From a virus: a stretch of 64,000 bases of DNA. Of this stretch, positions 4,981 through 12,895 are shown one piece after another. Made by a program: the position numbers and the translations under genes. The notes below the pieces were generated by a model. It saw nothing but the letters and a program-made list of their open reading frames with translations. It did not search any database and was not told the origin of the DNA. Where the stretch lies: positions 1 through 64,000 of the IMG/VR virus record IMGVR_UViG_3300025115_000004; one strand, 5' to 3'. The stretch's first letter is position 1. Every line of letters starts with the position of its first letter.

Positions 4981-5069
4981 GATAAAATAGTTTAAGTTAA
5001 TACTGTAATCTTATCCCTACAAAGATAGGTAAATAAAAGATACGTACCAAATCTCTAGGTAATAATTGA

Positions 5070-5111
5070 ACCGTATGCCGGAGACGATCCGGCACTAGCT
5101 CCAAGTACGGT
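5070..5111 (-). ncRNA. tRNA-like mini-element 1
   Basis: Read on the - strand: ACCGTA stem, linker CTTGGAGCTAG, TGCCGG stem, loop ATCGTCT, CCGGCA, TACGGT, then T and CAA. The 3' strand is exactly 12 nt. The first base is the last A of the stop codon of the topoisomerase-like gene. Confidence 0.75.
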
Positions 5112-5995
5112 TATTCTTCTCTGCGATCTTCAAGGAAGAATTTTGCATCCCTAAGATCATCCTTTCCGGCCTGCTCCTTAGCCATACAAGCCTGATACTT
5201 TTCCTTATCAATTAAGGCACGAATTGCATCATCCAGTATGTTATGAAGGACTTCAGGACGAAGGGCATCAACCTCCCACGATACCGGACCAAACTTTCTG
5301 ATGTAGTCTTTAGCTCTGGGGTCTGTAACTTTGGCGGGGTTAGGGGGAGGGTTATACTCTCTTATCTGATTCTGTGTCAGAGCTAAAGCATGCAACTCAA
5401 ACACATAATCCCCACGAAACTCTTCGATACGTTCTCTGATATCCCTGATCATATCCTGACCTGAGGGATCGAAGTCTCCTATATACAGGATAGTAGGCCA
5501 TGCATTAGCAGAGGAGAATCTCACATGAGCATCATACATAGCAGTTACGCTAGAGTACCCCCTGTTCACTATGATAGGAATACCATAACTTCTGGTTACC
5601 CTGTTTAATACTCCTGAGAGTGCGTCCTTCTCCACCCACACTTCAATGTACACCGGTTGATCTTCCATCCTATCCACCCTGTATTGCCTGATACAGGAGT
5701 TAATCATGTCCTCAGGAGACTTCCATGAAGAAGGTACATCAGGTTTCCTTAGGCGGTCTTCAATCGCATCCCAGTCTACCACTCCGGCCATTCTTCCCTC
5801 TTTGAGTAGAGTGGATAATTTGCCGTACTCTTTGACATTGTTAGGGATGACATCATGAGAGACCAACTGATAATACAACTGACGAAGAGTCAATCGATAC
5901 CCCTGATCCTGATACGAAACAATGATGTCGTTGATCATGTCAAGTCTTCTCAGATTGTCTTTCGATAATCTAATGTTTCTAAATGCTATTTTCAT
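5111..5995 (-). CDS. topoisomerase VI subunit A / Spo11-like protein
   Basis: The 294-residue protein has TLRQLYYQL near residue 36, with Y41/Y42 in the position of the catalytic tyrosine of the 5Y-CAP domain. A TOPRIM domain follows, with VWVEKDALSG (Glu122), an NRGYSS turn near 144 and the metal-binding DFDPSG at 174-179. This order is that of Topo VI-A/Spo11, enzymes that make double-strand DNA breaks through a tyrosine. It is shorter than cellular Topo VI-A and resembles the single-subunit mini-A proteins reported on mobile elements. No B-subunit ATPase is seen nearby. Start at the ATG preceded by TAGTT; element 2 lies upstream and element 1 at its stop. Confidence 0.7.
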   Translation of the reverse strand: MKIAFRNIRLSKDNLRRLDMINDIIVSYQDQGYRLTLRQLYYQLVSHDVIPNNVKEYGKLSTLLKEGRMAGVVDWDAIEDRLRKPDVPSSWKSPEDMINSCIRQYRVDRMEDQPVYIEVWVEKDALSGVLNRVTRSYGIPIIVNRGYSSVTAMYDAHVRFSSANAWPTILYIGDFDPSGQDMIRDIRERIEEFRGDYVFELHALALTQNQIREYNPPPNPAKVTDPRAKDYIRKFGPVSWEVDALRPEVLHNILDDAIRALIDKEKYQACMAKEQAGKDDLRDAKFFLEDRREE

Positions 5996-6031
5996 AACTA
6001 TTGTATTGGTTTCTAGGCATATGCCTATTGA

Positions 6032-6074
6032 ACCCGAAGAGGGAAACGATCCCTCTCCTGCTCCATAGTCGGGT
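6032..6074 (-). ncRNA. tRNA-like mini-element 2
   Basis: On the - strand: ACCCGA, linker CTATGGAGCAGG, AGAGGG, loop ATCGTTT, CCCTCT, TCGGGT, then T and CAA. It has twelve paired bases. It begins one base after the stop codon of the upstream gene and ends 36 nt before the next ATG. Confidence 0.75.
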
Positions 6075-6075
6075 T

Positions 6076-6306
6076 TTAATACAATATGTTTTCAATGTCC
6101 CTACGAACCACAGGATAACCCGCAATATCATCCGAGAATATCCTTGACTGATGAAAATTTCCATCAGGCATAACCTGATCCGGAGCGACCTCCCTTACCC
6201 TGTCCTCCTCATCATTATCCCAATCAACAAGGATGATCTGAGTGTCTGAATCGGTGATAATATGGGTGATTGAACCACATACCACCTCAATAAGAATTTT
6301 TCTCAT
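6076..6306 (-). CDS. small acidic unknown protein
   Basis: This 76-residue, strongly acidic protein (DWDNDEEDRVRE near the middle) begins with a beta-rich stretch MRKILIEVVCGSITHIITD. The small acidic make-up resembles early phage inhibitors or DNA mimics, but no family is recognised. Start context TAAGTAGTTATG. Confidence 0.55.
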   Translation of the reverse strand: MRKILIEVVCGSITHIITDSDTQIILVDWDNDEEDRVREVAPDQVMPDGNFHQSRIFSDDIAGYPVVRRDIENILY

Positions 6307-6327
6307 AACTACTTAATTTATTGGTTA

Positions 6328-6513
6328 TTAATCAATTCTCTCGGGATCGATATCAAACCACCTCCGAGCCGGTAGCCTGTTTTTAAACTTCTGCATAGCC
6401 TTGCGTTTGGCTTCGCCTGATGTCCGTGCCTTAACAAAGTAATCCACCGTCACATTCATGCCGATCTCTACCCTGTAAGACTTGATAGCTGATTTCTTCC
6501 TTTTACCTACCAT
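6328..6513 (-). CDS. small basic unknown protein
   Basis: This 61-residue protein has a very basic N-terminus (MVGKRKKSAIKSYRVEIG). The middle, FVKARTSGEAKRKAMQKFKN, recalls short phage proteins with an 'A-x-S-x-x-E-A-x-x-K-A' helix. Function unknown. The TAGTTATG start context is present. Confidence 0.55.
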   Translation of the reverse strand: MVGKRKKSAIKSYRVEIGMNVTVDYFVKARTSGEAKRKAMQKFKNRLPARRWFDIDPERID

Positions 6514-6515
6514 AA

Positions 6516-6722
6516 CTATTTGTATTTGTACCTACCTTCATAATCCTCATAAGAGAGGATAATACCTGCTACAAGCATCGTTAAGATACTTATAACTGTG
6601 AGAAGAGTCCACCACCATGTGGGGAGAGCGATCCATACACACACAAGTGTCGAAAGACAGGATATGTGCATTACAACATCCCAATAAGGGAAAGGCTTAC
6701 CACCTTTGTATCGAGTTTTCAT
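6516..6722 (-). CDS. small two-span membrane protein
   Basis: From the ATG at 6722 this gives 68 residues; longer in-frame starts would run into the upstream gene. The start overlaps the upstream TGA (ATGA coupling). A basic N-terminus (MKTRYKGGKPFPYW) is followed by two hydrophobic helices (about 18-33 and 37-55) and a charged tail. Probably an inner-membrane protein; role unknown. Confidence 0.55.
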   Translation of the reverse strand: MKTRYKGGKPFPYWDVVMHISCLSTLVCVWIALPTWWWTLLTVISILTMLVAGIILSYEDYEGRYKYK

Positions 6723-7126
6723 ACGTGTACTGAGTGAATATAGTAATTTACCCACTCCTGACGTACTTTCAGGTACTCTCCGATTGTTCTGGCTACAGCC
6801 TCCATGAACATGGAAATGTAGCACATATCATCTTCAAGGAACCCTTCAACCTCGAAACCAGAGGTCTCCAGAGTCTTACGGAGAGCGTAGTCAATAGCCA
6901 GAAAACTGTTCTGACATATAGCACTCCCGCTAGCGTGTACAGTCTGGTCATCGATCTGTAAAGTGAAAGAGACCACCCCGTTACTTCGATACATCCGGAG
7001 GGTTACAGGATTAAATAACTTCCTGTTTCGTCCGGCAATGATGGCGCATTCAGCTACGAAGGATCGATCCTGACGATGCCTAATGCTGTCCATCCCTTTC
7101 TTAGGTTCAAAAGACGTGATTTTCAT
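6719..7126 (-). CDS. unknown protein
   Basis: This 135-residue protein has a basic N-terminal third (RHRQDRSFVAECAIIAGRNRKLFN) and a mixed alpha/beta rest; no family recognised. It has start context AAGTAGTTATG and ends in an ATGA overlap with the membrane-protein gene. Confidence 0.55.
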   Translation of the reverse strand: MKITSFEPKKGMDSIRHRQDRSFVAECAIIAGRNRKLFNPVTLRMYRSNGVVSFTLQIDDQTVHASGSAICQNSFLAIDYALRKTLETSGFEVEGFLEDDMCYISMFMEAVARTIGEYLKVRQEWVNYYIHSVHV

Positions 7127-7128
7127 AA

Positions 7129-7524
7129 CTACTTAGTTTTTAGTGATTTGTACTTACCTTCATAACCAAATTTGACAGCATGCTTTGCTAGCTGTGGCGG
7201 GATGTGCTGGCATTCCTGTAGCTCATCCCCCGTGTACAGTACCCCACCGAGGACTGTGAATAGCTTTCCCCGATAATAGAACTGTTTGTCAGGATACTCA
7301 GGCTCAGGATCATTAACTATCTGTGTACCAAGTTTTTGCTCGATCCACTGAAGAATGATCTTTAGCCTTGTGTAGTTGGGGAACCTTCTTCTGTGTAGCG
7401 GGAACAGGTTGTGATCATAAATGATCACATAAATGTACCGCCTCTTTCCACACTGACGACTGTAACGAGTCACCAGATGCTTACGTTTCCCCACCGAAAC
7501 TGTAAACGTGTTTTTTAACCTCAT
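7129..7524 (-). CDS. unknown basic protein
   Basis: This 131-residue protein has an N-terminal 30 residues rich in Arg/Lys/Tyr (VGKRKHLVTRYSRQCGKRRYIYV). The C-terminal part contains YYRGKLFTVLGGVLYTGDE, a short beta-rich segment. Function unknown. Its start context is ACAGTAGAAATG, a deviation from the usual TAGTTATG, directly after tRNA-like element 3. Confidence 0.55.
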   Translation of the reverse strand: MRLKNTFTVSVGKRKHLVTRYSRQCGKRRYIYVIIYDHNLFPLHRRRFPNYTRLKIILQWIEQKLGTQIVNDPEPEYPDKQFYYRGKLFTVLGGVLYTGDELQECQHIPPQLAKHAVKFGYEGKYKSLKTK

Positions 7525-7543
7525 TTCTACTGTATTAATTTGA

Positions 7544-7585
7544 ACCGGATCAGGGAATCGAACCCTGATCTTGCTCCAAGCCGGT
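7544..7585 (-). ncRNA. tRNA-like mini-element 3
   Basis: On the - strand: ACCGG, linker CTTGGAGCAAG, ATCAGGG, loop TTCGATT, CCCTGAT, CCGGT, then T and CAA. The T-loop is canonical. The first base is the last A of the upstream TAA. The next ATG lies 19 nt beyond the element. Confidence 0.8.
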
Positions 7586-7794
7586 TATTTCACTAAAACG
7601 CATCCTGTCCTATAGGCGTCCAGAAACTCCACGTAGGTGTCGTCATAGTAGATCAGAGCAGAAAAAGCGGTTTCATCAGTGGAAAATCGTATGTCCTTTA
7701 CCCTGATCTGCAGATCGTTACTATCCAACCACTGGTTGATGCTTTCCTCCAGTTCTATTGATCTGGTTGACACAAAAATCTTAACTTTCTTCAT
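7585..7794 (-). CDS. small unknown protein
   Basis: This 69-residue protein has predicted beta-alpha-beta character (MKKVKIFVSTRSIELEESI…). No family recognised. It starts in AAGTAGTTATG and ends in the first bases of tRNA-like element 3. Confidence 0.55.
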   Translation of the reverse strand: MKKVKIFVSTRSIELEESINQWLDSNDLQIRVKDIRFSTDETAFSALIYYDDTYVEFLDAYRTGCVLVK

Positions 7795-7807
7795 AACTAC
7801 TTGGTTT

Positions 7808-8113
7808 TTAGCATTTAACTATTTTACCTCCAAAACTTCTGGCCTTCTTGATAGCCTCCCCCTTGGTGTACATGAGGGCTTTCCCTCCCATAGCCAGATA
7901 ACCCTCTTCAGTCATCCTACCCTCAGAAATATTCTGCTTTGAGGTATTTCTGTCTGTAGGAAGTTGTACCCTATACAGTTGCTTTATCTCTGTAGTCTGC
8001 ATCCTGAAGGTACCATACATTGCAAGATGCCACACATGAATTCCTTCCGATGAGTTTACAGGGAGTTTGTCATCTGCAATGTCATACTCTAAAGTAACAA
8101 TTACTTTTTTCAT
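7808..8113 (-). CDS. unknown protein
   Basis: This 101-residue protein opens with MKKVIVTLEYDIADDKLPV. Its C-terminal part GYLAMGGKALMYTKGEAIKKA resembles short helix-turn segments in phage early proteins. Unrecognised. Start context GAGTAGTTATG. Confidence 0.55.
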   Translation of the reverse strand: MKKVIVTLEYDIADDKLPVNSSEGIHVWHLAMYGTFRMQTTEIKQLYRVQLPTDRNTSKQNISEGRMTEEGYLAMGGKALMYTKGEAIKKARSFGGKIVKC

Positions 8114-8115
8114 AA

Positions 8116-8352
8116 CTACTCTTGTTTTATGGTTATTAATCCTTTTCTTACCAGTACTTTACAGTACTGAATCCCAAACTGAACCAAGAAAGAGGCTCTG
8201 GTAGGATGTACTTCCATGTCACCGTCTTCCTTTACGATCATGGAATCATTAGATAATCTGGTCAGTCTCTGAGTCTCTCGCAGAGCCTCTTTAAGCAGTG
8301 GAATATCCTCCTTAGAGAAGGATAAAATTTCCGGTTCTTCTTTCTTACTCAT
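8116..8352 (-). CDS. small helical unknown protein
   Basis: This 78-residue protein is rich in acidic residues and Leu in the first half (ILSFSKEDIPLLKEALRETQRL), probably a helical bundle. Its start ATG lies four bases after a TAGTTATG whose own ATG would give only a three-codon frame, so the context is shifted here. Function unknown. Confidence 0.5.
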   Translation of the reverse strand: MSKKEEPEILSFSKEDIPLLKEALRETQRLTRLSNDSMIVKEDGDMEVHPTRASFLVQFGIQYCKVLVRKGLITIKQE

Positions 8353-8369
8353 ACATAACTATTTGGTTT

Positions 8370-8588
8370 TTAATTGACTAAAGAATTAACATCGATCATC
8401 ATTACCGGTTTATCACCGATATATGCCCATAGCTGTACACCACTAACGCCTTGATATTTAGCCTCATAGTGGAAATAACTTCGAAGTGCATGGCCTATGT
8501 GATAATAGACCTTCCTGCGATCCCATGCAGCCCCCATATGGGTGACCCTGAGACGATAGGTTACTGGAGTGTAAATCTCGTAAGACAT
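8370..8588 (-). CDS. small unknown protein
   Basis: This 72-residue protein is rich in Tyr and aromatic residues (MSYEIYTPVTYRLRVTHMGAAW…). Unrecognised. Start context AATTAGTTATG, 25 nt after tRNA-like element 4. Confidence 0.5.
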   Translation of the reverse strand: MSYEIYTPVTYRLRVTHMGAAWDRRKVYYHIGHALRSYFHYEAKYQGVSGVQLWAYIGDKPVMMIDVNSLVN

Positions 8589-8613
8589 AACTAATTGATT
8601 TTAATTGATTTGT

Positions 8614-8654
8614 GCCTATCAGGGGAATCGAACCCCTGATGCAACCATTTAGGC
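8614..8654 (-). ncRNA. tRNA-like mini-element 4
   Basis: On the - strand: GCCT, linker AAATGGTTGC, ATCAGGGG, loop TTCGATT, CCCCTGAT, AGGC, then A and CAA. The split is 4+8, but the total is still 12 bp. The first base is the G of the upstream TAG stop. Confidence 0.75.
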
Positions 8655-8992
8655 TACGATCTTTCACCTATCCAGATACTGATCTCATTGTGGTAAGAGA
8701 CCTCAACAATAAACTCGGCTGAGTAGAGACCAAGAATCCCCTCAGCCTCAGCCTCCATGCGGAAAGCAGCATGGTAATCATTAGCCCTCTTACACCCCTC
8801 AAGGAGTTTATAGGCTACAATATCACCAGACGTGAGGATATTACCCTCAGCGTCAAGTATTTCGATGACTTTCCAGTCACCTAATTCCTGATCCCATATC
8901 CGGCCAGTATTTCTGATCTTGATATGATCAGCCACGTGAAATGAGATACCCCACTTCTCGCTCGCTCTTGCAAGTACTTGATCTTTAGTCAC
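8654..8992 (-). CDS. unknown protein, GTG start
   Basis: This 112-residue protein starts at a GTG (MTKDQVLARASEKWG…); no in-frame ATG gives the full helix. A central alpha-helical part ends in a beta strand (VSYHNEISIWIGERS). Unrecognised. It is the only gene of the run with a GTG start and lacks the TAGTT leader. tRNA-like element 5 lies 38 nt upstream. Confidence 0.5.
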   Translation of the reverse strand: MTKDQVLARASEKWGISFHVADHIKIRNTGRIWDQELGDWKVIEILDAEGNILTSGDIVAYKLLEGCKRANDYHAAFRMEAEAEGILGLYSAEFIVEVSYHNEISIWIGERS

Positions 8993-9030
8993 TGTACTAA
9001 CAGATTAATCTCTCGCACTATTGCGATTGT

Positions 9031-9072
9031 ACCGGAGGCTGGAGACGATCCAGCCCTAGCACCATGTCCGGT
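9031..9072 (-). ncRNA. tRNA-like mini-element 5
   Basis: On the - strand: ACCGGA, linker CATGGTGCTAG, GGCTGG, loop ATCGTCT, CCAGCC, TCCGGT, then A and CAA. It has twelve paired bases. The first base is the A of the upstream TGA. Confidence 0.75.
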
Positions 9073-9317
9073 CATTGTAAATACTCTTCCTGCTCTTTAA
9101 TGCGCTCAATCTCTGTTATTATGGCCTTGAAAGCCGTAGCAGGGATATTAATAGCCTTACCGCCCTGAGGATAGATTGTTACATCCATCACCGAGCCTTT
9201 GTTCAGGAAGCCGCCTGTATGGTTCTTTACAGGGGGTTTTACCTCTCTGAAGTACCATCTGATGACAACATCCTGTGCATCACCACTGTCGGTTGTAAAC
9301 TCTACTGCATTCTTCAT
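9072..9317 (-). CDS. small unknown protein
   Basis: This 81-residue protein has beta-rich N-terminal strands (FTTDSGDAQDVVIRWYF) and a Glu/Lys-rich C-terminal helix. Unrecognised. Start context AAGTAGTTATG; its stop is the first codon-sized word of element 5. Confidence 0.5.
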   Translation of the reverse strand: MKNAVEFTTDSGDAQDVVIRWYFREVKPPVKNHTGGFLNKGSVMDVTIYPQGGKAINIPATAFKAIITEIERIKEQEEYLQ

Positions 9318-9358
9318 AACTACTTGAATTTAAGGTTTATACTTATTCATCATAGTAT

Positions 9359-9577
9359 TCATAACCATGTTTTTCTAACAATTTTAGGCTTCTTGTTAAC
9401 TAGTTGCCATTCTTCAAACCATTCTCCCCATTGACCTCTACGTGAACGGGTTACATACACTACACCATTTTTGCTCTCATTTAAGAGATTGCGCATAACT
9501 CTTTTTACATCTCTGTAAGTAGGATAGAAACAAGAGTTTTGTCCTACTTGTACCCAAGGTCTAAGCATTTTTGCCAT
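9359..9577 (-). CDS. small basic unknown protein
   Basis: This 72-residue protein contains YPTYRDVKRVMRNLLNE, GVVYVTRSRRGQWGEWFEEW and a basic C-terminus. The Arg/Trp-rich core suggests RNA or DNA binding, but I do not know the family. Start context GATAGTTATG. Confidence 0.5.
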   Translation of the reverse strand: MAKMLRPWVQVGQNSCFYPTYRDVKRVMRNLLNESKNGVVYVTRSRRGQWGEWFEEWQLVNKKPKIVRKTWL

Positions 9578-9602
9578 AACTATCTGATTTTAATTGGTTT
9601 GA

Positions 9603-9644
9603 ACCGGAAGAGGGAGTCGAACCCTCTTCATGCTCCTAGCCGGT
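9603..9644 (-). ncRNA. tRNA-like mini-element 6
   Basis: On the - strand: ACCGG, linker CTAGGAGCATG, AAGAGGG, loop TTCGACT, CCCTCTT, CCGGT, then T and CAA. It starts about ten bases after the upstream stop, a looser position than most. Confidence 0.75.
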
Positions 9645-9654
9645 AAGTTGTTGA

Positions 9655-9972
9655 TTAATAAGCACTTTCTGACATCATTTGATTCTGTTCATAGGTAACA
9701 GATTCCCAGCTACCTTCCTCAGGATTAGTAAGATAGAAGAAATACTTCCTGAGTTGTTCTGCGATCTCATTTAACCGGTCATTATTTTCCCAGTCTGAGA
9801 TTGTACAATCATTGCACACCCTGCCCAGCATGCCACCGCCAAGGTAGTTCTGATAGGCTGTCATCTTTTCACCCTGAAAACCAAGGGTATCCAAAGTGAT
9901 CTCAATTCCACCGCCTCTGGACGATACTTTTTGCCTGAGGGTGATTTCTTCAAAATTAATGTTCTCGTTCAT
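9655..9972 (-). CDS. unknown protein
   Basis: This 105-residue acidic protein has a Gly-rich segment (YQNYLGGGMLGRVCNDC) and an Asn/Glu-rich helix. Unrecognised. Start context GATAGTTATG. Confidence 0.5.
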   Translation of the reverse strand: MNENINFEEITLRQKVSSRGGGIEITLDTLGFQGEKMTAYQNYLGGGMLGRVCNDCTISDWENNDRLNEIAEQLRKYFFYLTNPEEGSWESVTYEQNQMMSESAY

Positions 9973-9998
9973 AACTATCTGATTTAGTGTTGGTTTGA

Positions 9999-10040
9999 AC
10001 CCTGTCTGGGAAACGATCCCAGACTAGCTCCAAGCAGGGT
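9999..10040 (-). ncRNA. tRNA-like mini-element 7
   Basis: On the - strand: ACCCT, linker GCTTGGAGCTA, GTCTGGG, loop ATCGTTT, CCCAGAC, AGGGT, then T and CAA. It has twelve paired bases. The first base is the last A of the upstream TAA. Confidence 0.75.
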
Positions 10041-10321
10041 TAAGTTGTAAGGTCTTCAAAATCAGTCTGTTGGGGGTCATAATACCCGCCATTGTGGTTA
10101 CACGCATTATGTATGGTAACTTCCTCACCTACATTTAGATGCGCTGTCCTGACTGTTCTTTTGTGTGCCACGGCTAATGCTCTGGCCAATGTACGGACGG
10201 TTGTCAGATGGCTCAGGTTGTTTTGATCGATTATCAGCGAATAAACAACGGGAACTTCATTCCAACCGTTCACCGGTGAGCCACTCAAATTTACCTGAAA
10301 TGTAACGACTTTCTTATTCAT
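10040..10321 (-). CDS. unknown protein
   Basis: This 93-residue protein begins with beta strands (KKVVTFQVNLSGSP), followed by a basic helix (ARALAVAHKRTVRTAHL) and a Gly/Tyr C-terminus. Unrecognised. Start context AAGTAGTTATG; the stop runs into element 7. Confidence 0.5.
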   Translation of the reverse strand: MNKKVVTFQVNLSGSPVNGWNEVPVVYSLIIDQNNLSHLTTVRTLARALAVAHKRTVRTAHLNVGEEVTIHNACNHNGGYYDPQQTDFEDLTT

Positions 10322-10351
10322 AACTACTTGAATTTAAGGTTAATAATTTGC

Positions 10352-10393
10352 GCTGAGGAAGGGACTCGAACCCTTCCTTGCACCATGCTCAGC
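10352..10393 (-). ncRNA. tRNA-like mini-element 8
   Basis: On the - strand: GCTGA, linker GCATGGTGCAA, GGAAGGG, loop TTCGAGT, CCCTTCC, TCAGC, then G and CAA. The TGA stop of the upstream gene (10389-10391) lies inside the 5' acceptor strand, so the element overlaps coding sequence. Confidence 0.75.
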
Positions 10394-10667
10394 CTAGAAT
10401 CCTGATAGCCTCCATAACATCCTGTGTATCAGGCAGGGTGCCGTTGTTCAATCTGTCGATAACCACAATCAGGTTATCGGCATCTAGTTTGAATTGCACT
10501 ACCATGCCTTTGTTCCATACCTGTCCGTGACGGCCTTGGCAATGGCCTCTCCATGTGTAAGTTCCGGCCTTCCGATCGATACTGAGTTTACCGATATGAT
10601 TATGACCGATACCCCAGCCCCTGTGCCAGTCACTGCATCCCACTGTTGTTAACTTCTTTGCGCTCAT
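10389..10667 (-). CDS. unknown His/Trp-rich protein
   Basis: This 92-residue protein has a run of His/Trp/Cys (GCSDWHRGWGIGHNHIGK, then WRGHCQGRHG) that could bind metal, and a C-terminal helix. No family recognised. Start context AAGTAGTTATG, where the TAG is also the stop codon of the preceding small gene. Its own TGA lies inside element 8. Confidence 0.5.
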   Translation of the reverse strand: MSAKKLTTVGCSDWHRGWGIGHNHIGKLSIDRKAGTYTWRGHCQGRHGQVWNKGMVVQFKLDADNLIVVIDRLNNGTLPDTQDVMEAIRILG

Positions 10668-10669
10668 AA

Positions 10670-10816
10670 CTACTTGGTTTTAAATTGGTTATACAATCTA
10701 TTACATTCATCACGATAATTCTGTTCCCTGATACGTTTAACAGCCTCATAGTGAGCTATTTCCGATGCTGTAGGTTTAACCTTAGCTTTGATCAGGATAT
10801 TTAGCAATTTCTTCAT
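10670..10816 (-). CDS. small basic peptide
   Basis: This 48-residue frame (MKKLLNILIKAKVKPTASE… ending QFKTK) is a basic amphipathic helix. It has the conserved GATAGTTATG start context of its neighbours, which supports it as real. Its TAG stop is part of the next gene's TAGTTATG. Unrecognised. Confidence 0.55.
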   Translation of the reverse strand: MKKLLNILIKAKVKPTASEIAHYEAVKRIREQNYRDECNRLYNQFKTK

Positions 10817-10818
10817 AA

Positions 10819-11199
10819 CTATCTGATTTTAATGGTTTTACCTTCTTTTACGTCCCATATGGCCTGCTGGTTATATTTTCGGCCTGCTTCAATCGCCTCA
10901 TTTAAGTCTAAAATATTGGCAGACAGATCAATATAAACCTCACCATCATTTACCCATGCCCCTAAATATACCCCTGTTTGGAGAATACCCGCATTTGATT
11001 TGCACACTGTCAGGATATCTCCCTGAGTCAGTTCGTTAACCGGTTTGTTCATACAACCGTGAAAACCTACCATGTAACCAGCCTGTGGCCTCCTTCCGGC
11101 TATATTCAGGCTGCATCCATTATCCCTTTGGATTGTGTTAAACACATTTATAGCCAAGGAGTTAACGGCCAGTTGATTCATAAATGAATAACGTCTCAT
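10819..11199 (-). CDS. unknown protein
   Basis: The start at 11199 has the AATTAGTTATG context and gives 126 residues; the longer frame to 11259 would run through tRNA-like element 9 and is rejected. An N-terminal basic segment (MRRYSFMNQLAV) is followed by a beta-rich domain (YMVGFHGCMNKPVNELTQGDILTV) reminiscent of small barrel domains. Unrecognised. Confidence 0.55.
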   Translation of the reverse strand: MRRYSFMNQLAVNSLAINVFNTIQRDNGCSLNIAGRRPQAGYMVGFHGCMNKPVNELTQGDILTVCKSNAGILQTGVYLGAWVNDGEVYIDLSANILDLNEAIEAGRKYNQQAIWDVKEGKTIKIR

Positions 11200-11224
11200 A
11201 ACTAATTGATTTTTAATGATTTGC

Positions 11225-11266
11225 ACCCTGCACCGGACTCGAACCGGTGCCAGCACCATGCAGGGT
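11225..11266 (-). ncRNA. tRNA-like mini-element 9
   Basis: On the - strand: ACCCT, linker GCATGGTGCTG, GCACCGG, loop TTCGAGT, CCGGTGC, AGGGT, then G and CAA. It has twelve paired bases and lies three bases after the upstream TAG. Confidence 0.8.
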
Positions 11267-11269
11267 TAA

Positions 11270-11452
11270 CTATTTGAATATCAGTGTGGTACCAACCACA
11301 TACGCCTCGCTGTAGGCATTTTCAACCAGTATTGACCGGCCGTTACTCAAAAGTACTTCATGATCACCATTGTGACCTGTAACTGTCACTGTTTCAGTGT
11401 GTTTGCAGGCTACTATAGCAACCAGCAAACAGATAAGGATCAATTGCTTCAT
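11270..11452 (-). CDS. small lipoprotein
   Basis: This 60-residue protein has a short basic N-terminus, a hydrophobic signal (LILICLLVAIVA) and a lipobox-like VAC with Cys at residue 16. It is therefore probably lipid-anchored after signal peptidase II cleavage. The mature part is a short beta-rich domain. Phage lipoproteins of this size often block superinfection at the cell surface; that role is inference. Start context TTAGTTATG. Confidence 0.65.
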   Translation of the reverse strand: MKQLILICLLVAIVACKHTETVTVTGHNGDHEVLLSNGRSILVENAYSEAYVVGTTLIFK

Positions 11453-11454
11453 AA

Positions 11455-12066
11455 CTAACTGATTTCTAGGATTAACTGAAAATTAGTCTTCTTAATTCTA
11501 CGCCATATCACCCATGTTGCTGACTGCATTATCAGCGGGTTTACGTTAACTTTTGCTGCAGCATGCCGGTAACAGTCACTGAAGAATTTATACTGCTTTG
11601 CAGTCATTGCATACTCCCTGTCTCCTATATTGCGGCCTAAAGCTATCGCCAGTGCATGCCGGTCAATTGTCAGGCTAATGGCCTTGTCAGGGTACCTGAT
11701 ATTGAGGTAAAAGCTAGATATTTTTGCACCCTTTAGAATCTTAAGTATTTCTTTTTCAGTACCTTGCGAGGCCAGTATCTGCCTGCCTTTGCTTTTAAAT
11801 GACTCCATATGACCGCAATTACCTGTATACCAGAAGTCTGCAGCCAGTTTCTTATTCTGCTCCCATGTTTTTAAGGGACTGAAGCATGCAATTAACCCGC
11901 AAAACTTATTTACTTCTAACTCATTGGCAGTAAAGGTTTTAGCAAAGGTTAACGCCTCATTGTACCAGTCATACCTGTCGGCATCGCTGGTTAAGTTCCA
12001 GATTTTCAGGATGTTATTAACAGCCTTTGTTCTGGTTAACTGTTTGGTTTTGAATACCTGTTTCAT
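11455..12066 (-). CDS. phage protein with SP..W..N / DRHA motifs (DUF7178-like)
   Basis: The start at 12066 (MKQVFKTKQLT) gives 203 residues; a longer frame would cross tRNA-like element 10. Conserved-looking blocks are CFSPLKTWEQNKK near 63-75, LKGAKISSFYLNI near 112-124 and LTIDRHALAIALGR near 132-146. The pattern resembles a phage family that I believe is catalogued as DUF7178, with a helical, DNA-glycosylase-like look, but no activity is known to me. Confidence 0.5.
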   Translation of the reverse strand: MKQVFKTKQLTRTKAVNNILKIWNLTSDADRYDWYNEALTFAKTFTANELEVNKFCGLIACFSPLKTWEQNKKLAADFWYTGNCGHMESFKSKGRQILASQGTEKEILKILKGAKISSFYLNIRYPDKAISLTIDRHALAIALGRNIGDREYAMTAKQYKFFSDCYRHAAAKVNVNPLIMQSATWVIWRRIKKTNFQLILEIS

Positions 12067-12088
12067 TTTTGCTGGTTTTAAAGTTTGT

Positions 12089-12130
12089 AGCATGGGCAGG
12101 AATCGAACCTGCCCCAGTACCATACATGCT
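12089..12130 (-). ncRNA. tRNA-like mini-element 10
   Basis: On the - strand: AGCAT, linker GTATGGTACTG, GGGCAGG, loop TTCGATT, CCTGCCC, ATGCT, then A and CAA. It has twelve paired bases. It begins nine bases after the upstream stop and ends 22 nt before the next ATG. Confidence 0.8.
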
Positions 12131-12139
12131 GATAATCAA

Positions 12140-12286
12140 TTACTTCCTGTGGCCTTTCAGGTTTGCATAAACAGGCTTATTTTCACCAGTTTTAACCGAT
12201 TTTTTAACCTGTTTCTTGGCATATCCATGAAAACCTTTGTCAATCAGGTTGTTCACCTGTACCGGATTGTTAACTTTCCTTGTCAT
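12140..12286 (-). CDS. small basic peptide, first gene of the leftward operon
   Basis: From the ATG at 12286 (context GATAGTTATG) this gives 48 residues rich in Lys (GYAKKQVKKSVKTGENK), likely a nucleic-acid-binding or membrane-active peptide. The longer frame to 12352 would cross element 11 and is rejected. Unrecognised. Confidence 0.55.
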   Translation of the reverse strand: MTRKVNNPVQVNNLIDKGFHGYAKKQVKKSVKTGENKPVYANLKGHRK

Positions 12287-12314
12287 AACTATCTGAGTTT
12301 TAGTGAATAATTGT

Positions 12315-12357
12315 GGCCAGTCCTCAATCGAATGAGCACAGCTAAACTGCACTGGCC
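12315..12357 (-). ncRNA. tRNA-like mini-element 11 (leader variant)
   Basis: On the - strand: a 7-bp acceptor GGCCAGT / ACTGGCC, a 14-nt linker without GG, a short T-stem CTCA / TGAG with loop TTCGAT and one unpaired G, then A and CAA. The 3' strand is again 12 nt, here 7 + 1 + 4, close to the tRNA split. It lies in the leader of the operon rather than after a stop codon. Confidence 0.6.
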
Positions 12358-12411: not shown

Positions 12412-12895
12412 CTTTTTTTATCTCCGGAACCTTGTAACCTCAGCTAGTTTGCCTTGGAGTTGACTGTCAGACAATTAAGCCTTTTTAGAACCGCTTCACA
12501 GCGGGATAACAGCCAGTTTTAAACCAGATCGCACCTATTTAATCGCGTGTCCGCCTGTCAGCATGTCAAAGAACTGACACAAATATACGGCACCGAAAAT
12601 GGCAATGTCAAACCTGATTATCAGCGAGTTACAAAGGTTTTGAGCTCAATTTGAGCCGAATTCTGCGCGGTTAATCGAGTGACAGTCAGCGAGTTAGACG
12701 CAATTTCACGCCTAAACAACTAGGTTTGCAAAAATGTAAATGTTAAAAAATGTTAAAAATAATGTGGGTGCTGCGAAACTGGCTGCAAATCAATGAGTTG
12801 TCAGGTCAAAAATTTTTCAAAATATTTCGATGCAGGTTAACAAACTAGGTGCGAAATAGGCCGAAATTAGCCTGCAGATATGTTAACGAAAACCC

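Follow-up and report, generated by a model that had tools for sequence, protein, structure and literature searches.

The question raised by the virus record IMGVR_UViG_3300025115_000004 is what stands at the gene ends of one of its operons, and what would read it there. The window analysed here is 64 kb (positions 1 to 64,000) of this IMG/VR record of 78,044 bases. It includes a minus-strand operon of small genes running from ~12.3 to 5.0 kb, and ten of its gene ends carry a short element that resembles a tRNA reduced to its elbow, called here the mini-tRNA-like element. We describe the fold of these elements, their position relative to stop codons and their recurrence in other phages, and then weigh the proposal that host tRNA-maturation enzymes process them.

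Ten elements with a tRNA-like fold

Each of the ten elements, all on the minus strand and 41-43 nt long, consists of a 5′ acceptor strand of 5-8 nt, a linker of 10-12 nt containing GG, a T-stem with a 7-nt loop (TTCGANT or ATCGTYT in the window) and a contiguous 3′ strand of constantly 12 nt, which together give a perfect helix of 12 bp whatever the stem split; both the anticodon arm and the D-stem are missing. The original prediction, made from the letters of the window, had listed eleven such elements. Ten of them hold exactly as described, including the constant 3′ strand and the linker GG, and the eleventh, at 12315, is lost and is taken up below with the operon leader. The stem splits given at that time are partly ambiguous, the best-scoring ones being 5+7 or 6+6, and 8+4 for the element at 11225. 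N-C-A-A follows directly 3′ of the helix in 10/10 elements. A strict descriptor run over the 64 kb returned exactly these ten and no other site, and on 40 dinucleotide shuffles of the whole window it returned 1 match in total, or ~0.025 sites per window. When the window was searched by the T-loop alone, with pairing not required, the same ten sites came back, each with a perfect 12-bp helix, and the remainder of the record outside the window held zero elements. Against a covariance model, a check that had been suggested, the ten score 31-61 bits.

That the stems differ while their pairing is kept had been taken as a sign of RNA structure, and the compensatory change is strong indeed. The unbiased test is a sample of 115 sites chosen by T-loop and downstream C alone, of which 66 form a perfect 12-bp helix, compared with 1.5% after swapping 3′ strands between sites. 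A second set, of 19 copies diverse in sequence and equal in length, was picked by a pairing descriptor and therefore ranks behind the pairing-free sample as a test; here 12/12 pairs are standard in every sequence (paired cells 100% vs 60% shuffled) and 11 of the 12 pairs show changes on both sides, the double-change cells numbering 86, where shuffles give 21.6. The predicted covariation also appears in other phages: at one orthologous intergenic gap of cluster A mycobacteriophages, SWU2 (GGGAGG/CCTCCC), HINdeR (TGGCGCG/CGCGCCA) and Sheen (GGCGCG/CGCGCC) share the linker ATGGTCGCA and have different stems, all paired, and from the same gap of Peaches and A10ZJ24 the element is absent. Among the non-Watson-Crick positions, G-U is found 27 times and A-C 5 times; since G-U is tolerated and A-C is not, selection acts on the sense-strand RNA. 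Judged by these comparisons, the elements are RNA structures kept by selection, with stems rewritten and pairing retained.

In total, 84 non-redundant copies were collected in 31 contigs or records, a count that, as with every frequency not taken from the window or the named phages, is biased, since the patterns and descriptors that found the copies demand parts of the motif. The tRNA-like architecture proposed earlier, an acceptor stem and T-arm with a D-loop/T-loop elbow and no anticodon arm, is supported: by its 12-bp coaxial helix, its 7-nt tRNA-consensus T-loop and its D-loop-like GG, the element belongs to the descriptive class of tRNA acceptor/T-arm mimics. The T-loop consensus includes the rarer TTCAANT, and positions 54/58 are exchanged to A/T in 7 non-redundant copies. 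The linker GG is present in 87/87 perfect sites, compared with 44% of random stretches, and 75 of these sites have it at position 3 or 4 of the linker. Position +1 is a purine in 78/84 copies, and position -1 is able to pair with position 73 in only 24/87 perfect sites. Position 74, which follows an unpaired discriminator-like base, is C in 10/10 window elements and in 32/33 copies from named phages, sets in whose selection C74 played no part. No conserved acceptor identity letters were seen in the elements, ARAGORN called no tRNA gene in the window, and Rfam at its gathering threshold gave no match in the window or at five carrier loci, bar one true tRNA in contig L015; the near-threshold Rfam matches were dismissed as chance. 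The elements do not look like intrinsic terminators either, with TTTTT within 60 nt downstream in 2/84 copies and no terminator-like site overlapping the ten in the window.

Placement at stop codons and spread among phages

The elements had been described as intercistronic, which they are, but their placement is specifically at stop codons and not general between genes. The upstream stop ends within -12 to +9 of the element start in 62/84 copies vs 6% of random positions. Most frequent among the single offsets is +1, at which the element begins on the final base of the stop codon; the window elements at 5070, 7544, 8614, 9031 and 9999 all do so. Copies always lie sense to the gene, including where gene direction flips in Gordonia phages, and their neighbourhood consists of small genes of unknown function; structural-gene regions of the window and of Gordonia phage VanLee contain no elements. 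Downstream of the element, 55% of copies have a second hairpin with 6 bp or more in its stem, vs 20% in shuffled sequence. In VanLee (L078), Fowlmouth and Cuke (L137 and L138) and L015, a hairpin of variable sequence was noticed that separates the element from the next gene's ribosome-binding site. In the window, two matches to a Bacteroidota-type promoter consensus bound the operon (Table 1), and the elements from 5070 to 12130 therefore lie in one presumed transcription unit, whose genes would be early judging by their position and small size.

The original prediction had described the family from the window; it is not private to the window phage, and the class recurs in several phage lineages. 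Pattern scans of viral contigs found copies in many unrelated contigs, and unannotated copies occur in isolated phages of Gordonia (VanLee, Cafasso, Aleemily, ObLaDi and Morgana) and of Mycobacterium smegmatis (Fowlmouth, Cuke, SWU2, HINdeR and Sheen), with most copies, ~17 by the covariance model, in VanLee. Of 201 bacterial genomes sampled from a Prevotella family, one has a copy; it adjoins an integrase and is therefore presumed to belong to a prophage. From the genomes that carry it, the element class is present in phages of two bacterial phyla, Bacteroidota and Actinomycetota. Protein scans of viral contigs, and blastn or tblastn against phages, revealed no close relatives of the window phage, and Maribacter phage Panino, which has DUF7178 in common with it, holds no elements in the parts scanned, 30 kb at the start and 17 kb at the end. 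Further viral pattern scans added no elements, and the candidates from short BLAST searches (Bane1, Yaboi, River4, Amme-3 and Ray17) were rejected as real tRNAs or as lacking the 5′ strand. Four Bacteroides/Phocaeicola contigs (L115, L117, L128 and L130) have in common another conserved tRNA-like stretch, GCGCTATGGTGCA..GGGGTTCGACTCCCCGAGTGCCCGCAATGCG, which is possibly a tRNA remnant or an insertion site. As the original prediction had supposed, no description of a matching element class was found in the open-access literature.

Host tRNA enzymes as the proposed readers

What could read such an element? A reader that occurs in two phyla, is blind to the stem sequence and is sensitive to the elbow letters, the 12 bp and C74 would most simply be a tRNA-maturation enzyme. 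We therefore favour, with a probability of roughly 55%, the reading that the elements are cis-acting, tRNA-mimicking punctuation of early polycistronic mRNA, processed by host RNase P and/or RNase Z. In the proposed mechanism, each element would fold just past the stop codon into its 12-bp coaxial helix, with the D-loop-like GG holding the T-loop and with a discriminator-like N73 followed by C74 at its end; host tRNA-maturation enzymes would recognise the elbow, measure the 12 bp, and cut at +1 (RNase P) and/or after N73 (RNase Z). Each gene would obtain its own message with structured ends: one end would be tRNA-like, and in many lineages the opposite end would carry the second hairpin. Because the 5′ strand overlaps the stop codon, a ribosome terminating there would mask or melt it, and processing would depend on translation of the upstream gene. 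The sequence itself shows the RNA structure, its selection, its position at stops and its spread; the acting enzyme, the cutting itself and the effect on expression are what we infer. The wider joint claim, namely that an undescribed minimal tRNA mimic of ~42 nt in at least two phyla recruits host tRNA 5′ and 3′ maturation enzymes to cut phage mRNA, as a mitochondria-like tRNA punctuation for bacteriophages in which stop-overlapping copies are coupled to translation termination, is in our judgement an even bet.

Within this proposal, the purine at +1 and C74 seem to favour RNase P, and the lack of C75 together with the stop overlap seems to favour RNase Z, which would leave the stop intact and give the message a tRNA-like 3′ cap. 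The 3′ end, N-C-R, agrees with that of an RNase Z substrate, an acceptor/T-arm unit with no CCA encoded after the discriminator. Several points weigh against the proposal. RNase P prefers a full 3′ RCCA, which the elements do not have, position 75 being A or G and hardly ever C. Pairing of A-1 with U73 is possible in the Bacteroidota TCA group. A cut at +1 in stop-overlapping copies would break the upstream stop, and therefore RNase Z fits better there, or cutting would occur only after translation. Lastly, a shared phage protein may have been missed, as the protein comparison among carriers discussed below was not full-length for every carrier.

Several known systems resemble the elements in part. 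In mitochondria, cuts at tRNAs separate the messages and gene ends may extend into a tRNA; real tRNAs do this there, whereas the phages would employ dedicated mini-mimics. Plant-virus tRNA-like structures, of the type of turnip yellow mosaic virus, are genome-terminal, with a pseudoknotted acceptor and a CCA end, and are aminoacylated. Viral tRNA mimicry at mRNA 3′ ends is common to both, but the phage elements are internal, end in N-C-A or N-C-G and have a simple helix, which places them outside that class. They likewise fall outside the bacterial Y RNAs that go with Ro protein: a tRNA-like module is shared, but the elements are intercistronic and are not Y-RNA genes, and a TROVE protein was seen in 1/28 carrier records. 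The t-elements of plant mitochondria, which lie beside mRNAs, undergo processing by RNase P, RNase Z and CCA enzyme and are not aminoacylated (PMC11658184). The phage elements are likewise tRNA-like, adjacent to mRNA, without encoded CCA and not working tRNAs; the t-elements differ in being organellar and few per genome, whereas the phage elements are of 42 nt, lack anticodon arm and D-stem, and are arrayed after stops. RNase P is also known to cleave acceptor/T-arm model hairpins such as AT1, where a 12-bp acceptor/T helix with its T-loop is a sufficient recognised unit (PMC11143913), but these laboratory constructs have no linker and carry the full 3′ RCCA, in contrast to the GG linker and N-C-R of the phage elements. 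Phage M3 RNA, C4 antisense RNA and T4 gene 32 mRNA are known phage transcripts that host RNase P cuts (cited in PMC11143913); they are single cases with other structures, whereas the elements form a repeated, covarying family at gene ends. No described family matches, yet the kind, a tRNA-like element perhaps directing mRNA processing, is known from organelles.

The best surviving alternative, improbable in our view, is that the elements stabilise or insulate the message uncut and without tRNA enzymes, the elbow and second hairpin blocking exonucleases or protecting ends in the manner of repetitive extragenic palindromic (REP) and bacterial interspersed mosaic element (BIME) hairpins. Placement just after stops and the frequent second hairpin suit such a role, for which a plain GC hairpin would suffice, however, leaving the strict T-loop letters, the GG linker, the 12 bp and C74 unneeded.

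A role as gene-cassette recombination joints, either attC-like integrase sites or simple homology patches, is less probable again. It draws on a comparison of ObLaDi with Cafasso, in which ObLaDi shows a single additional gene with an element on either side; homology stops at position 44 of one element and restarts 4 nt ahead of the following one. In the pairs Cafasso/Morgana and Fowlmouth/Cuke, too, several breakpoints (gene insertions and replacements) coincide with elements. Such mosaic breakpoints are to be expected at any repeated intergenic sequence, and the freely rewritten stems leave little sequence for recombination. Unlike integron attC sites, the elements have the RNA-like asymmetry of G-U over A-C, always lie sense to the gene and keep the tRNA tertiary letters, and no integrase or other recombinase common to the carriers was found in the regions compared. 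As an observation, the cassette joint is genuine, whether role or side effect, but it does not account for the RNA asymmetry or the tRNA-specific letters.

Two further alternatives appear to us distinctly unlikely, and about equally so. Excised RNAs of ~42 nt might act in trans, either as small mimics of tRNA, as decoys that occupy defence toxins or tRNA-binding host factors, or as minihelices that can be charged; the ~17 copies of VanLee and an architecture suited to elbow-binding proteins would agree with this, but one copy per gene end, tied to stops, is more than a decoy would need, and minihelices for charging lack conserved acceptor identity letters here, the plant t-elements being likewise not aminoacylated (PMC11658184). 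Alternatively, the early operons might be controlled by an RNA-binding protein of the phage that binds at the elements. In VanLee, a Ro-like (TROVE) RNA-binding protein is encoded beside tRNA-Arg (NC_073474, 65751-67367), and DUF7178 genes have elements as neighbours in HINdeR, Sheen and the window and share a record with one in L022. As general partners both were rejected, TROVE being confined to VanLee (1/28 carrier records) and DUF7178 to 4/37 records. Save for DUF7178 and one small protein, unrelated carriers have no protein in common in the regions compared, which favours a universal host reader. The last alternative, decayed tRNA genes or chance hairpins, starts from the likeness to the 3′ half of tRNAs and is refuted by the covariation, also at orthologous sites, and the stop-codon placement, in line with ten perfect copies of diverse stems and conserved linker, the near-empty shuffles, and the silence of ARAGORN and Rfam at the elements.

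If tRNA enzymes do act on them, the elements would be a portable way to split one early phage transcript into many messages, the machinery used would consist of enzymes indispensable to the host, and phage mRNA would have general processors in RNase P and RNase Z. The elements would also offer natural minimal tRNA elbows that display the features tRNA enzymes demand, and being present, unannotated, in cultured Mycobacterium smegmatis and Gordonia phages, they can be tested at once.

Leader and gene starts of the operon

Table 1. Elements and neighbouring features of the minus-strand operon (positions of the window; promoters are consensus matches only).
Feature	Position	Strand	Stem split (bp)	Loop	Score (bits)	Context
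Promoter match, Bacteroidota type	5020..5051	-				next match, just beyond last element
Mini-tRNA-like element	5070..5111	-	6+6	ATCGTCT	57.8	starts on last A of upstream TAA
Mini-tRNA-like element	6032..6074	-	6+6	ATCGTTT	42.9	palindromic hairpin TAGGCATATGCCTA after it
Mini-tRNA-like element	7544..7585	-	5+7	TTCGATT	38.1	first base is last A of TAA
Mini-tRNA-like element	8614..8654	-	5+7	TTCGATT	38.0	overlaps TAG stop
Mini-tRNA-like element	9031..9072	-	6+6	ATCGTCT	58.9	overlaps TGA stop
Mini-tRNA-like element	9603..9644	-	5+7	TTCGACT	30.9	stop 10 nt before
Mini-tRNA-like element	9999..10040	-	6+6	ATCGTTT	59.8	first base is last A of TAA
Mini-tRNA-like element	10352..10393	-	6+6	TTCGAGT	60.1	acceptor strand contains TGA stop
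Mini-tRNA-like element	11225..11266	-	ambiguous, 8+4 to 6+6	TTCGAGT	61.2	stop 3 nt before
DUF7178 loci	11455-12066					further loci: L142, L143, L151
Mini-tRNA-like element	12089..12130	-	6+6	TTCGATT	58.9	stop 9 nt before
Promoter match, Bacteroidota type	12580..12612	-				TTTG-N21-TATATTTG, upstream of operon

The eleventh candidate of the original prediction (12315..12357, minus strand) falls within the operon's 5′ leader, between the promoter match and the first gene. It was rejected as an element, scoring 10.4 bits with the covariance model vs 10.1 bits for a neighbouring chance match; its helix is bulged, and both the linker GG and the G53-C61 closing pair are missing. The same stretch forms a stable but different hairpin (-17.9 kcal/mol) with an ACAA end like that of the elements, and it may be a separate leader structure.

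The gene starts of the same operon have a feature of their own, a leader motif close to AAATCARNTAGTTATG that stands at 16 of them (window 5993-12299, minus strand) and has 24 matches in the window at up to 2 mismatches vs 2.2 expected. With a common motif at the start and a tRNA-like structure at the end, the genes of the operon look like units.

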